From Crocinitomicaceae bacterium (GTDB taxonomy: Bacteria > Bacteroidota > Bacteroidia > Flavobacteriales_D > Crocinitomicaceae): a DNA stretch of 34,200 nucleotides. The stretch's first letter is position 1. Each line of letters begins with the position of its first letter. Below, in pieces: positions 27,247-33,481 of this stretch. A model generated the notes under the pieces. It was not told where the DNA came from. It saw only the letters and a list, made by a program, of their open reading frames with translations, and did not search any database. The position numbers and the translations under genes were made by a program. Location of the stretch: contig JAURNL010000002.1 of NCBI GenBank assembly GCA_030830205.1, positions 1-34,200 of the forward strand, read 5' to 3'.

Positions 27247-28230
27247 ATGAAAGTAGCTGTAGTAGGAGCCACCGGCATGGTCGGTTCAGTAATGTTAAAA
27301 GTGTTAGCTGAGCAACAATTTGCTTTAACTGAATTACTTCTAGTAGCCTCCGAAAACAGCGTAGGTAAAAAAATAACGCACCAAGGCAAGGAATATGCTG
27401 TAATAGGTTTGGCGGACGCAGTAGCAGCGGCTCCCGAAATTGCGATTTTTTCTGCGGGTGGAGAAACCTCATTGGAGTGGGCGCCTCGCTTTGCGGAGAA
27501 AGGAACAGTTGTTATTGACAACAGTTCGGCATGGCGAATGGATCCAACAAAGAAGCTCATTGTTCCGGAAATCAACGGACAGCTCCTTACCAAACAAGAC
27601 CTCATCATTGCCAATCCAAATTGCAGTACTATTCAGTTGGTAATGGTTTTGGCACCACTGCACCGCAAATATGGCGTCAAGCGTGTGGTAGTTTCTACTT
27701 ATCAATCGATAACAGGTACGGGGGTCAAAGCTGTTCAGCAATTGGAAAATGAACGAGCTGGCATTCAGGGAGATATGGCTTACAATTATCCAATAGATAA
27801 AAACTGTATTCCACAATGCGATGCCTTCTTAGAAAATGGTTATACCAAAGAGGAGATGAAACTCACTAATGAGACAAAAAAAATATTGGACCCAAGTATC
27901 AATGTAACTGCAACAGCAGTGCGTGTTCCTGTGGTTGGCGGGCATTCTGAGGCCGTCAATATTTCATTTGAAAATGACTTTGATCTTCAAGAGGTCCGTT
28001 CGTTGCTCTCTCAAACACCTGGCATTTCGCTTCAAGACAACCCAGCAAACTATGAGTACCCAATGCCTAGAATGGCAGAAGCTAAAGATGATGTTTTTGT
28101 GGGCAGAATTCGCCGCGACGAAAGCCAAGCGAATACCTTAAATCTTTGGATTGTTGCAGATAATCTTCGTAAAGGAGCAGCAACTAATGCAGTTCAGATT
28201 GCCAACCTTGTTAAAGAATTAATCGCTTAG
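27247..28230 (+). CDS. asd: aspartate-semialdehyde dehydrogenase
   Basis: Asd reduces aspartyl-4-phosphate to aspartate-4-semialdehyde with NADPH, the branch point to lysine/diaminopimelate, threonine and methionine. The 327-residue protein shows the Rossmann start MKVAVVGATGMVGSVM, IDNSSAWRMDP, the catalytic Cys126 in IANPNCSTIQLV, STYQSITGTGVKAVQQLENE and RVPVVGGHSEAVNISFE with the catalytic His region. Length and motif order fit the bacterial family. It is a single-gene unit: the divergent lamin-tail gene begins 35 bases upstream, and its stop overlaps that of the convergent kinase gene by 4 bases. Confidence 0.97.
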   Translation: MKVAVVGATGMVGSVMLKVLAEQQFALTELLLVASENSVGKKITHQGKEYAVIGLADAVAAAPEIAIFSAGGETSLEWAPRFAEKGTVVIDNSSAWRMDPTKKLIVPEINGQLLTKQDLIIANPNCSTIQLVMVLAPLHRKYGVKRVVVSTYQSITGTGVKAVQQLENERAGIQGDMAYNYPIDKNCIPQCDAFLENGYTKEEMKLTNETKKILDPSINVTATAVRVPVVGGHSEAVNISFENDFDLQEVRSLLSQTPGISLQDNPANYEYPMPRMAEAKDDVFVGRIRRDESQANTLNLWIVADNLRKGAATNAVQIANLVKELIA

Positions 28231-29081
28231 TTATTGACTTTGTGGAGTATATAATTTGGTAGCTGATTTGTTGCTCCACTTTGGGATGCCACTATGGCTC
28301 CAACTTCACAGGCAAGTGTCAAACTTTTTTGCCAACTTAGTTTGTTACGTACACAAGTGATTAAACAAGCAAAAAAAGCGTCTCCCGCACCTACAGTGTC
28401 TGCAACTCTGACCTGAGGTGCTGCTGCTTGATAAAGTTCTGAATCGGCAATTAAAAGAGCCCCTTCAGACCCTTTAGTGACACACAATATCATATTTAGA
28501 TGCCATTTTTGGAATGCTTCGAGTCCTGATGAAAGTTCACTGATTCCCCATTTTTGTTGACAAAACCAACAAAACTCTTCTTCATTGAATTTAACAAGTT
28601 GTGCTTGTTCAAGATAATGAAGTATTAAATTAAATTCAAAATAGGGTTGTCTGAGATTTACATCGAAATAATTAAATGTACTTTTTTTTAGAAGTCCATT
28701 AAGTGTATTCCTATTGGCTGGGTTGCGCAAAGCTAATGATCCAAATACAACTTCACCTTGCCAATTTTCAGGTGCTTGAATTTCGTCCCATGCTGCAGGG
28801 TTTGCAATAACATATGAAGCATGCTTATTTTGGTCTAGGGTTACATTGACAACACCAGTTTGCAGGGAATCACTGATCTTTAATAGATGAGGTAAATGCA
28901 TCTTTTTTATAATTTCGGCAATTTCCCCACCGAGGGAATCATCTCCAATTCCTGAGCAAAAAAGCACGTCTTGATTGAATTCATGCAGTCTTAATGCAAC
29001 ATTGAATGGGGCACCTCCAAGCACTTTTCCACTCGGGAATAAATCCCAGAGAATTTCTCCAAAAGCTAAAATAGGGGTCAT
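28227..29081 (-). CDS. PfkB-family carbohydrate kinase, probable fructokinase
   Basis: This 284-residue ribokinase-fold sugar kinase has the N-terminal GEILWDLFPSGKVLGGAPFNVALRL, typical of fructokinases, and the PfkB signature DTVGAGDAFFACL with catalytic Asp234. FDVNLRQPYF and LVKFNEEEFCW fit the family. The likely reaction is ATP-dependent phosphorylation of fructose or a related sugar. Its ATG overlaps the stop of the upstream transporter fragment (ATGA), so it was part of a sugar uptake operon. The transporter is broken here, so this kinase may now be fed by another route. No glycoside hydrolase gene is adjacent within the window. Confidence 0.9.
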   Translation of the reverse strand: MTPILAFGEILWDLFPSGKVLGGAPFNVALRLHEFNQDVLFCSGIGDDSLGGEIAEIIKKMHLPHLLKISDSLQTGVVNVTLDQNKHASYVIANPAAWDEIQAPENWQGEVVFGSLALRNPANRNTLNGLLKKSTFNYFDVNLRQPYFEFNLILHYLEQAQLVKFNEEEFCWFCQQKWGISELSSGLEAFQKWHLNMILCVTKGSEGALLIADSELYQAAAPQVRVADTVGAGDAFFACLITCVRNKLSWQKSLTLACEVGAIVASQSGATNQLPNYILHKVNN

Positions 29082-29819
29082 TTGTCGAGAAGTTCATTAT
29101 TTAATTCTTCTAAGCTCTTTCCTTTAGTTTCGGGAACATGCCAATTTATCCAGAATAACTGAATCACCATCATGAACATAAAAAAAAGGAAGACATAGGC
29201 AGCACCCAAGCGTTCTGTTGAGCCAATATTTTGAAATAGCCATGGCATAAAAGCCGGAATGAGAGCTGCAAGTATCCAATGTGTTGCCGAACCAAAGGCT
29301 TGTCCTTTTGCTCTAAGATGATCAGGGAATATTTCTGAAATAAAAACCCAAATAACAGCTCCTTGGCCAATCGCATGAGAGGCGATAAACAGAAAGAAGA
29401 AAATACTCTCAAAAAAAATACTTGTCTCCTTTTGAAGGAGCAATTTCAGAAATATATGCCGGTGCAGCTATGGTAGATGCGCCTATGCCGATCCCCCCTA
29501 AAAACCGAGCAAATGCAAAGAAATATGGATCGCTAGCAAACGCAGAACCAAGTGCTGATAATGCAAAAAGGATTCCTACAATGAGCAGTGTGGGTTTAAT
29601 ACCCCATTTATTCGTTGGTAAATGGCCATAGATAGATCCCAAAACTGTACCCCAAAGTGCTGTCGCCATAATTACCATTCCATGAAATAAATTGGAACTT
29701 TTCCAAAGCGCTTGAAGCGTTTGATCAGCTCCAGAAATTACAACCATGTCAAAGCCGAATAGGAACCCTGAGAAGGCAGCGATAATAGCAAAAATGTTCA
29801 CCATGCGAATTTTACTCAT
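29078..29819 (-). pseudogene. MFS sugar-porter gene, internally deleted and frameshifted
   Basis: Two overlapping frames encode the ends of a major facilitator sugar porter. The first (29819-29409, 136 residues) holds TM1-TM4: SGFLFGFDMVVISGADQTL, then RFLGGIGIGASTIAAPAYISEIAPSKGD, and stops at TGA. The second (to 29078) resumes with ESIFFFLFIASHAIGQGAVIWVFISEIFPDHLRAKGQAFG, which is the TM10 region, through TM12 and the PETKGKSLEEL tail. Removing one base from the T8 run (A8 at 29411-29418 on +) would join them into 246 residues. Sugar porters are usually 440-480 residues, so about 200 residues (TM5 to TM9) are missing as well. A single frameshift does not explain this; I call it a pseudogene, with assembly error possible. 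Confidence 0.8.
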
Positions 29820-29884
29820 TTGTTCAAATTTTAAAGCTTAAAAATAAATAGAGTCTTTTAAGCCTTAATATGCAGTCATTATAT

Positions 29885-29892: not shown

Positions 29893-29895
29893 CTC

Positions 29896-29974
29896 CGTCT
29901 CTAAGGGGTGCCGCAAGGCTGAGATTACACCCATTGAACCTGATTTGGATAATGCCAACGAAGGGAAGATGACG
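29896..29974 (+). ncRNA. TPP (THI-box) riboswitch
   Basis: The thiamin pyrophosphate aptamer consensus is clear: AGGGGTGCC-GCAA-GG, CTGAGA, CACCC, then GAACCTGATTTGGATAATGCCAACGAAGGGA. GGGTG (29906-29910) pairs with CACCC (29928-29932) as the P2 stem, and CGTC (29896) with GACG (29971) can close P1. It precedes the TonB-dependent receptor gene by 60 bases. In this phylum such riboswitches are known to control outer-membrane thiamin receptors. Binding of TPP is expected to lower expression. Confidence 0.95.
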
Positions 29975-29994
29975 AGCTTAACTTACATAACTGT

Positions 29995-30034: not shown

Positions 30035-32287
30035 ATGAAAACAAGATTTCTAATTTCAACATGGTTATTCCATGTGACAACAGCAATTGCTCAAAGTACC
30101 GATATTTCACCAATAGATACCATCAAGCGTATTCAAAACATGGAAGAAATAGTTGTTTCGGGCTTACGTGCTAAAGATGCTCCTAACAACATAACAGTTA
30201 GCAAAAAAGAATTGCAAGTCAAGAATTTTGGTCAAGACATGCCAACGCTTTTGGAGTTTACTCCTTCGGTTGTAACCACTAGTGATGCAGGAGCTGGCAT
30301 TGGATACAGTAGCTTGCGTATACGCGGGGTTGACGCTAGTCGGATAAATGTTACCATTAATGGGATTCCGGTCAATGATCCAGAGTCTCATGATGTGTAT
30401 TGGGTCAACATGCCGGATTTAGTTGGTTCAATTGAAAACATGCAAGTGCAGCGTGGGGTGGGGTCTTCTACCAATGGGGCCGCAGCTTTTGGAGCAAGTG
30501 TGAATATCAAAACTAATGAACTCAAAGCACAGCCATTTGCGCGCATGGATCTTTCGGGAGGTTCTTTTGGCACACTCAGAGGAACGCTTCAGGCGGGTAC
30601 AGGCTTGCTCGATAATCGTTTTTGTTTAGAAGCGCGCCTTTCGGAAATACGCTCTGATGGCTACCTTGATCGCGCCACATCTGACTTGCGTTCAATGGGC
30701 CTCACCGCCACGTACCTTTCCAAAAAGTCAGTTTGGAAAGCGGTAGTCTTAACGGGCGCTGAGCGCACATATCAGGCTTGGTATGGCACGCCAGAAAGTC
30801 GTTATCGTGGCGATTCCCTTGGTATGCTCGACTACGCCACGCGCAATGGCCTGAGCGCTGCCGAAACCCAAAACTTATTGGAGTCGGGGCGTACCTATAA
30901 CTTTTACAGCTATGCCAATCAGGTTGATAACTACCAACAAGACAATTACCAACTCCATTTCATACATCGATTTTCCTCAAAACTTGAGCTTAATTTGGCG
31001 GGTCATTATACCTATGGAAGAGGTTACTATGAAGAATTGAGAAACCAAGATGCACTTTCTGATTACGGACTCGCGCCTGTAGTACTTGGTTCAGATACCC
31101 TTGTTACTTCTGACCTAATCAGAAGAAGATGGCTAGACAATCATTTTGTTGGATTGGTTTATGGTCTTAATTACCAATTGAAACCCCATTTGAAATTGAC
31201 CCTTGGAGGTGCAGCAAACCGCTATAAGGGTTTGCATTTTGGTGAATTGATCTGGGCGGAATATGCCTCGAATAGTCAGATCTACGATCGCTATTATCAA
31301 AACGATGCACTCAAAACAGAACTCAGTACCTATCTCAAGTCCAATTATTCGCGCAACGGCTTGGATCTTATACTAGACCTCCAATACCGTGGTATTGCGT
31401 ATCAATTTTTAGGTGTGGATCAGGTTAGTGGCAATTTGACGGACGTTACCCAACATGTTAACTATCATTTCTTTAATCCAAAAGTAGCATTCGCTAAGCT
31501 AATAGGGTCTCATCAATTTTTTGGATCCTTTGGGATTGCCAATCGCGAGCCTGTCCGAAGAGATTTTCGAGAAAGCACCTCTGAAAATAGACCAAGTCCA
31601 GAACGCATGTTCGATACGGAATTGGCGTATCGTTTGCAGTTCAAAAAATTCAATGCGCAGGCCAATATTTTTTGGATGTATTACCATAATCAATTGGTGC
31701 TTACAGGGCAAATTAATGATGTTGGGGGCTACACCCGAACCAATGTTGATCGTAGCTATCGTGCGGGTCTTGAACTAGAAATGGGTTATCAACTGAATAA
31801 AAAACTGAGCATTCAAAGCGCCACAACACTCAGTCAAAACGAGATCATCAATTTTGTGGAATATGTAGACGTTTATCTTGATGTTGATCCCTACTATACA
31901 CAAATTCAAATTCAGCATGGCACAACCGATCTTGCTTTTTCACCTAGCTTTATTCAAACATTGGGCCTGCAATATAGTCCAGTAGAGGGCCTCGCTTTTG
32001 GAATCCAGAGTAAGTATGTATCGCGCCAATTTTTAGATAACACCACTAATGTAGGCAGAAGTCTAGACCCGTTTACTTTTACCAACTTCATTTGTAATTA
32101 CAAGGTCAAGCAAACATTTGCCAAAGAGGTCGAAATAGGTTTAGCGGTCAATAACTTATTCAACGCAATGTATGCGAATAACGGCTACACGTTTAGTTAC
32201 CAATATGCTGGTCAGATAACCACTGAAAATTTCTATTATCCACAAGCAGGCCGACATTTCTTACTGAAAATGAGCATCCAATTTTAA
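30035..32287 (+). CDS. TonB-dependent outer-membrane receptor, thiamin class
   Basis: This TonB-dependent receptor imports a ligand through the outer membrane. The riboswitch directly upstream makes thiamin or a thiamin phosphate the likely ligand. The track's ATG at 29870 lies before the aptamer; the ATG at 30035 gives a proper signal peptide (MKTRFLISTWLFHVTTAIAQ) and 750 residues. A TonB-box-like MEEIVVSG is followed by the plug (LLEFTPSVVTTSDAGAGIGYSSLRIRGVDASRINVTINGIPVNDPESHDVYWVNMPDL) and a barrel ending with the aromatic strand FLLKMSIQF. There is no N-terminal carboxypeptidase-like domain and no SusD partner, so it is not a glycan Sus pair. A TonB-C fusion gene follows after 27 bases. 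Confidence 0.93.
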   Translation: MKTRFLISTWLFHVTTAIAQSTDISPIDTIKRIQNMEEIVVSGLRAKDAPNNITVSKKELQVKNFGQDMPTLLEFTPSVVTTSDAGAGIGYSSLRIRGVDASRINVTINGIPVNDPESHDVYWVNMPDLVGSIENMQVQRGVGSSTNGAAAFGASVNIKTNELKAQPFARMDLSGGSFGTLRGTLQAGTGLLDNRFCLEARLSEIRSDGYLDRATSDLRSMGLTATYLSKKSVWKAVVLTGAERTYQAWYGTPESRYRGDSLGMLDYATRNGLSAAETQNLLESGRTYNFYSYANQVDNYQQDNYQLHFIHRFSSKLELNLAGHYTYGRGYYEELRNQDALSDYGLAPVVLGSDTLVTSDLIRRRWLDNHFVGLVYGLNYQLKPHLKLTLGGAANRYKGLHFGELIWAEYASNSQIYDRYYQNDALKTELSTYLKSNYSRNGLDLILDLQYRGIAYQFLGVDQVSGNLTDVTQHVNYHFFNPKVAFAKLIGSHQFFGSFGIANREPVRRDFRESTSENRPSPERMFDTELAYRLQFKKFNAQANIFWMYYHNQLVLTGQINDVGGYTRTNVDRSYRAGLELEMGYQLNKKLSIQSATTLSQNEIINFVEYVDVYLDVDPYYTQIQIQHGTTDLAFSPSFIQTLGLQYSPVEGLAFGIQSKYVSRQFLDNTTNVGRSLDPFTFTNFICNYKVKQTFAKEVEIGLAVNNLFNAMYANNGYTFSYQYAGQITTENFYYPQAGRHFLLKMSIQF

Positions 32288-32292
32288 TTATC

Positions 32293-32300
32293 TATCTTTG
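32293..32300 (+). promoter_or_regulatory. -7 promoter element before the TonB-C/barrel gene
   Basis: TATCTTTG, exact TAnnTTTG, lies in the 27-base gap with the ATG 14 bases downstream. It would let this gene be expressed independently of the riboswitch. No -33 TTG is evident. Confidence 0.4.
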
Positions 32301-32314
32301 AAAAAATTCTCCTC

Positions 32315-33481
32315 ATGAAAAATATCTTCGCCACATTTATTACGCTTATTGGATTAACTGCTCAAGCACAAGTTTTAGAAAAGCCACAATTAGTGGAGAA
32401 AATTGATACCAGTGCCATACTCATTCAAGATATCAACGAGCCGCAGGTAGCCACAGAAATATGGGTGGCACCAGATGTAGCAGAAAGCCGCAATACGCCA
32501 TCATTTCCTGGAGGTCAAGAAGCTTTAAACGCATACGTCAAGGAGGAAGTTGAAAATTTTATTTTTGCAGATACTAATGAAACTTTTCCTTGGGGAGAAT
32601 CGGTCTATGTAGTATTTGAAATTGCCACTGATGGCAAAATAACCAATCCCACAATTGAAATGGGCTTCAATGCACTATTAGACAGCGCAGCTCTGGATAT
32701 CGTTCGCAATATGCCGAATTGGACCCCTGCTAGTGATGAAAATGGCATGCCAATAGTTGCTAACTACCGGCTTCAAATTCTCTTCGATCTGGATTTAGAC
32801 CTAGAGGAAGACTTTGATTTTGATGAAGAATCAAAAAGTGCCAAAGCACATTGGGCAGGTTTTGAATTTGGTTTTCAAGTTAATACGATTGGTTTTCTTG
32901 AGCCCTCAAGCTCTTTTGCTTCTACTCCTTATTGGGAGAATAATATTTCAAAAAGCATGTTATTCAATTTGAATACTTTCCAACACAAATTCAGATTATT
33001 GAATGATAATTTGGGACTTATAACAGGCTATGGCTTTAATTTTGGCGCTACAGAACTTACCTCTTCTTATGTACTTGAGCACAACGCAGACAGCGTTTAT
33101 GCCATCATAGACAATAACCAAGTGTACAAGCGCAATACCTTGTATTCAGCTTACCTCACCGTTCCTTTACTGTTGGAACTTACCGCAGGCCAAGATCAAC
33201 CTTACAAAAAGATATTTTATCTAGACGCGGGTGTAATTGGTGGCGTGCGCTTATACAGTCACCAACGCTTTACAGGTACTTATGCCAACGGCAACGAGTT
33301 TGAAAATACAACAAAATCAAAATTCAATCTAAATACTTGGATGCTCGACGCTACAGTACGTATAGGCTATGGCCATTTCGGACTTTTTGCAAATTATGCG
33401 ATACTCAATATGTTTAAGGAAGGCACTACGGTGGGGGTTTACCCAATGCGCTTTGGGGTATCTTTTAACATTCCTCAGTAG
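32315..33481 (+). CDS. TonB C-terminal domain fused to an outer-membrane beta-barrel
   Basis: This 388-residue exported protein has an unusual order. The signal peptide (MKNIFATFITLIGLTAQAQ) is followed at about 62-157 by a TonB C-terminal-like domain: TPSFPGGQEALNAYVKEEV, VYVVFEIATDGKITNPTIEMGFNALLDSAALDIVRNMPNWTPASDENGMPIVANYRLQILFDL. An acidic linker (DLDLEEDFDFDEE) leads to a C-terminal beta-barrel (AGFEFGFQVNTIGF to FGVSFNIPQ) of PorT-like size. Classical TonB has an N-terminal inner-membrane anchor; here the domain would sit in the periplasm tethered to the outer membrane. It follows the thiamin-class receptor, suggesting a link that is unproven. The 3' end overlaps convergent fmt by 7 bases. 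Confidence 0.82.
   Translation: MKNIFATFITLIGLTAQAQVLEKPQLVEKIDTSAILIQDINEPQVATEIWVAPDVAESRNTPSFPGGQEALNAYVKEEVENFIFADTNETFPWGESVYVVFEIATDGKITNPTIEMGFNALLDSAALDIVRNMPNWTPASDENGMPIVANYRLQILFDLDLDLEEDFDFDEESKSAKAHWAGFEFGFQVNTIGFLEPSSSFASTPYWENNISKSMLFNLNTFQHKFRLLNDNLGLITGYGFNFGATELTSSYVLEHNADSVYAIIDNNQVYKRNTLYSAYLTVPLLLELTAGQDQPYKKIFYLDAGVIGGVRLYSHQRFTGTYANGNEFENTTKSKFNLNTWMLDATVRIGYGHFGLFANYAILNMFKEGTTVGVYPMRFGVSFNIPQ

Follow-up and report, generated by a model that had tools for sequence, protein, structure and literature searches.

A TonB C-terminal domain fused to an outer-membrane beta-barrel beside a TPP-riboswitch-controlled receptor in a genus of Crocinitomicaceae

In the usual description, TonB C-terminal domains (TonB-CTDs) extend from the inner membrane to the outer membrane, where they pull receptors open. 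Here we report a protein of 388 amino acids (ORF 32315-33481, forward strand), encoded in a Crocinitomicaceae genome directly behind a TonB-dependent receptor and its TPP riboswitch, in which a TonB-CTD is fused to the N-terminal side of an outer-membrane beta-barrel. The coordinates refer to the window, i.e. the whole stretch of 34,200 nucleotides that was analysed, unless another locus is named. No description of a TonB-CTD joined to a barrel was found in open-licence papers, and the architecture is apparently undescribed: a known binding domain sits on a known barrel, in a combination and at a place that are unrecorded. We tentatively interpret the protein as an accessory outer-membrane component of thiamin uptake whose tethered TonB-CTD would contact the N-terminal/TonB-box region of the receptor in trans. 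If this is true, a dedicated TonB-CTD is fixed beside one vitamin receptor, and access to the TonB box can be controlled locally. The features of the locus are as follows.

29894-29983, forward strand: TPP riboswitch aptamer (RF00059; 59.7 bits, gathering score 54.3; full model 1-105)
30035-32287, forward strand: TonB-dependent receptor, probable thiamin transporter (Plug PF07715, E = 8.9e-13)
30140-30163, forward strand: TonB box region of the receptor, MEEIVVSG (sequence)
32293-32300, forward strand: TATCTTTG between the two genes, within the 27-base spacer; similar to the Bacteroidota -7 box TAnnTTTG and kept in most close orthologues
32315-32371, forward strand: signal peptide covering residues 1-19, with its cleavage site near AQ (sequence; Q19 present in at least 90% of the 56 aligned rows)
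32372-32488, forward strand: N-terminal linker, residues 20-58, beginning with the clade-conserved VLEKPQLVEK (pLDDT mostly below 50)
32489-32788, forward strand: TonB C-terminal domain, residues 59-158 (PF03544, model, fold match and PDB profile matches)
32558-32605, forward strand: clade-specific segment FIFADTNETFPWGESV in place of the YP motif, residues 82-97 (alignment and tally)
32789-32848, forward strand: acidic linker, residues 159-178 (sequence; pLDDT below 50 at 163-172)
32849-33481, forward strand: eight-stranded outer-membrane beta-barrel and stop, residues 179-388 (PF13568, model and Foldseek)

The initial annotation had described a signal peptide, a TonB-C-like domain, an acidic linker and a barrel, and each of these was recovered; the acidic linker corresponds to residues 159-178. 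In the domain search, TonB_C (PF03544) matched residues 97-159 of the window protein with 27.4 bits, which is above the gathering cut-off of 24.6, and the NCBIfam model TIGR01352 scored 17.9 bits, under its cut-off of 27.1. The barrel family OMP_b-brl_2 (PF13568) matched residues 181-361 with 26.1 bits, just under the gathering cut-off of 27. The homologue L048 is above the Pfam cut-offs for both TonB_C (54.9 bits) and OMP_b-brl_2 (32.5 bits), and the relative L064 exceeds that for OMP_b-brl_2 (34.8 bits). In an alignment of 56 rows, TonB_C was matched in 36 rows and the barrel in 49 (E ≤ 0.01).

Structure prediction from the single sequence gave a pLDDT of 30; the AlphaFold2 model used here rests on the 56-row alignment and has a mean pLDDT of 85.4. 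It contains both the TonB-C fold that had been placed at residues 62-157 (helix 67-85, strands 95-103 and 109-116, helix 120-131, strand 149-157; pLDDT mostly 87-98) and a C-terminal barrel with eight main strands between residues 182 and 385. Foldseek matched the TonB-CTD to that of Helicobacter pylori (6sly, prob 1.00) and the barrel to Ail, OmpA, OprF and NspA, all of which are eight-stranded. When a profile of the TonB domain was searched against the PDB, 15 of 15 matches were TonB or HasB chains; phmmer with the single window protein gave no match in the PDB, and the viral fold library gave no match below 0.001. The composition of the window protein (signal peptide, TonB-CTD, acidic linker and eight-stranded barrel) is thereby confirmed. 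A chance fusion or a misassembly is ruled out by the 55 full-length copies present in one Crocinitomicaceae genus.

The predicted C-terminal eight-stranded barrel is shared with OMP_b-brl_2 (PF13568) and with OmpA- and Ail-type barrels, whereas in the fusion a TonB-CTD is attached on the periplasmic side and an OmpA-type peptidoglycan-binding domain is lacking (PF00691, no match at E ≤ 1). The TonB-CTD might itself bind peptidoglycan, so that the protein, much like OmpA, would fasten the outer membrane to the cell wall or position the receptor there. The architecture is indeed OmpA-like with reversed domain order, and peptidoglycan binding by TonB-CTDs has been proposed (PMC9022066), but the canonical binding domain is missing and a general tether would not need a place behind a thiamin receptor; we consider this explanation very unlikely.

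A hydropathy scan found no 19-residue stretch above 0.91 after residue 30, i.e. no inner-membrane anchor, which together with the AQ site and the conserved Q19 agrees with the earlier description of a signal peptide without such an anchor. The length of the N-terminal linker differs widely among homologues, with the FPGG motif starting anywhere from residue 27 to residue 71. L057 and L058 have FPGG at residue 27, about 8 residues between the leader and the TonB domain, and a second linker of 11 residues. A chain of this length cannot bridge the distance between the inner membrane and a barrel in the outer membrane, so the TonB domain presumably hangs from the outer membrane. Judging from fold and length, the barrel would be embedded in the outer membrane, with the TonB-CTD held close to it in the periplasm by a short linker.

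The fold and sequence of the domain are those of the TonB energy transducer (PF03544; 6sly, 2gsk, 2grx), including FPGG...YP in most relatives. In contrast to the transducer, the fusion has neither an inner-membrane anchor nor a spacer, its domain is N-terminal to a barrel, and YP has been lost in the clade of the window. The layout of an energy transducer (N-terminal anchor, spacer, C-terminal TonB domain) is absent, as the barrel comes after the TonB domain. TonB does have an N-terminal anchor and the leader of the fusion is hydrophobic, and an uncleaved leader might hold the protein in the inner membrane and make it a transducer linking both membranes by itself. This is almost certainly wrong: the AQ cleavage site is conserved, the linkers of L057 and L058 are far too short for the periplasm, there is no proline-rich spacer, and ExbB is encoded on other contigs. 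An uncleaved inner-membrane anchor was rejected on linker length.

The ExbB genes are located on contigs C68 and C53, outside the window, and the fusion gene is not encoded with ExbB or ExbD. The genome has a separate anchored TonB, whose gene is adjoined by an ExbB gene and an ExbD-like ORF, so the fusion protein is an extra. There are 17 matches to the Plug domain in the genome versus one TonB encoded beside ExbB/ExbD-like genes, and receptors may therefore compete for TonB. One possibility is that the TonB-CTD of the fusion binds the energised TonB (as a CTD-CTD dimer) or ExbD, so that more of the motor is present near the thiamin receptor. TonB-CTDs can dimerise in vivo and contact ExbD, but what the TonB dimer does physiologically is not settled (PMC9022066), and we regard recruitment of this kind as distinctly unlikely.

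The neighbouring gene had been called a thiamin receptor, and this label holds, with transport being predicted, because the gene encodes a TonB-dependent receptor with a Plug domain behind a TPP riboswitch. The riboswitch is the only one of its kind in the genome. The ORF itself opens at 29870, ahead of the riboswitch, so the ATG at 30035 was taken as the likely start codon of the receptor; receptor orthologues begin at the same MKTR. Among 33 scanned receptor loci, 24 had a TPP riboswitch upstream of the receptor (21 reaching the gathering score and 3 falling just below it), while the other 9 had none at the gathering score, which was the only threshold applied to these nine. ThiC was not found in the genome (assembly approximately 93% complete), which together with the sole TPP riboswitch fits a need to import thiamin or one of its precursors.

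In Bacteroides thetaiotaomicron, the TPP-riboswitch-controlled TonB-dependent receptor OMthi (BT2390) contributes to thiamin uptake (PMC5613172). The two systems share the riboswitch-controlled receptor; no accessory barrel is named for OMthi in the consulted part of that paper, and no PnuT or Tnr3 was recognised beside the receptor of the window. On the reverse strand at 29078-29819, two ORFs match only the two ends of the sugar transporter profile Sugar_tr (positions 2-134 and 354-451 of 452). They adjoin a PfkB kinase (28227-29081) and represent either a decayed gene or an assembly error.

The receptor was detected in 70 of the 86 genomes of the genus, and in 62 of these 70 the barrel gene lies immediately 3' of it on the same strand. 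Of the adjoining barrels, 47 carry the TonB domain and 15 do not. In the other eight genomes, a contig ends at the receptor or its partner (G024, G040, G001, G337) or the receptor and barrel genes are apart (G003, G029, G012, G058). The 15 genomes in which a domain-less barrel adjoins the receptor show that the pairing does not depend on the TonB domain and that the barrel is the steadier partner of the receptor; the TonB domain is thus an optional periplasmic module under purifying selection. With the genus naturally split in this way, what the domain contributes can be tested directly.

The first search gave some match in 100 of 100 relatives, and the full architecture was confined to the genus. 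Outside the genus, neither the 299 sampled genomes of the order nor the 396 sampled genomes of the phylum yielded a full-length fusion; the two samples overlap and are not exhaustive. In other genera of the family, the barrel occurs alone and away from such a receptor (12 loci inspected). Close copies in named records are mostly from metagenome-assembled genomes of Crocinitomicaceae, Cryomorphaceae or Flavobacteriales, UBA952 among them. None of nine other long TonB_C ORFs that had been read by eye as possible barrel fusions contains a barrel; their TonB_C domain is at or near the C-terminus, and they are mostly M56/BlaR1-like, with one MORN-like and one large protein.

The fusion gene may be transcribed by read-through from the riboswitch-controlled receptor gene, from a promoter of its own, or both. 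The element TATCTTTG in the spacer could be such a promoter; the pattern TAnnTTTG is not enriched across the window (34 found, 40.8 expected). As this conserved element may be a separate promoter, co-transcription with the receptor is not certain.

Sequence constraint was estimated for the close pair L040-L041, in which the TonB domain had a dN/dS of 0.022/0.28, the barrel one of 0.025/0.25 and the linker one of 0.26/0.35; in more distant pairs synonymous sites are saturated. These values indicate that the TonB domain and the barrel are under equally tight constraint. The fused state requires 3 changes on the barrel tree and 4 on the TonB-domain tree, with many weak branches in both, and may have arisen by one gain followed by losses. 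Rate covariation between the receptor and the TonB-CTD (mirror-tree) was 0.58 over all loci and 0.02 within the clade, and unlinked genes gave similar values. The mature N-terminus QVLEKPQLVEK (32369-32401) is strongly kept in the clade of the window, and the remainder of the linker varies freely; the conserved stretch is possibly a short binding peptide.

The YP motif, which in TonB-CTDs lies close to the surface that binds the TonB box, is wholly or partly lost in the clade of the window and in the L045 group. The position is occupied by FA in the window protein and by YA, FA, FK or LQ across its clade, and the 16 other fused copies have YP (12), LP (3) or FP (1). Because of this replacement, the TonB domain of the clade may bind another partner or bind differently. 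A domain working outside Ton transport altogether, bound to some other periplasmic partner such as a chaperone, a thiamin carrier or the receptor body, would account for the loss of YP in this clade and its degeneration in another. YP is also absent from two short TonB_C proteins of the genome that contains the window, and TonB_C is elsewhere fused to unrelated proteins. The short secreted TonB_C proteins of Bacteroidota may offer a parallel. The domain is, however, strongly constrained and linked to a TonB receptor, and most of the other fused copies keep YP, so that we judge such repurposing unlikely.

The receptors differ as well. In other members of the genus, a TonB box of the LEEVQV type comes after a CarboxypepD_reg domain, which is missing in the clade of the window. 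Receptors without this domain before the TonB box are found at 30035-32287, L031:9738-11990 and L042:9101-11374, in contrast to L045, L048 and L063. The absence of CarboxypepD_reg and the replacement of YP may each be a single event, and their coincidence therefore proves no link.

A role at the receptor plug stays the leading guess because the gene pairing is conserved and the domain has the TonB-CTD fold. TonB-CTDs bind the TonB boxes of TonB-dependent receptors through strand addition (PMC12204202; PMC11658791), and in FpvA the signalling domain and the receptor's own TonB box together make up a four-stranded sheet (PMC11658791). We hold the accessory role with less than even confidence because YP is lost in the clade, 15 partners are without the domain, and the covariation values are as given above. 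In the proposed sequence of events, the barrel would pair with the receptor in the outer membrane, and the TonB-CTD would bind the N-terminal/TonB-box segment by beta-strand addition and hold or present it in trans, as the FpvA signalling domain does in cis. The energised inner-membrane TonB would then take over the segment, the fusion protein having no motor connection of its own. That an outer-membrane TonB-CTD captures the resting TonB box and hands it over to energised TonB would be a control step of the Ton system not described before, and we consider this more specific claim somewhat doubtful.

The STN domain of FpvA/FoxA-type receptors is likewise a small periplasmic alpha/beta domain able to pair with a TonB box (PMC11658791), but it is part of the receptor itself, whereas the domain of the fusion is a TonB-CTD on a separate protein; STN (PF07660) had no match at E ≤ 1 in the window protein or the receptor. 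SusCD-type systems also pair a TonB receptor with an outer-membrane protein that is dedicated to it and encoded alongside, but SusD is a surface lipoprotein lid and the fusion is a barrel with a periplasmic domain.

Several related loci were observed. The two short TonB_C proteins mentioned above (L153, L154) are secreted, have no visible anchor and no YP motif, and are both encoded near an alpha/beta-hydrolase-like ORF (by eye). One genome of the genus (G037) has two fused copies (L109, L110) on two contigs, each after a receptor fragment. In G000, contig C18 encodes a further family member, a second barrel lacking the TonB domain (L068:7429-8496), which comes after an ECF-type sigma factor and a 344-aa protein of no known kind; paralogues similar to this second barrel are present in most genomes of the genus.
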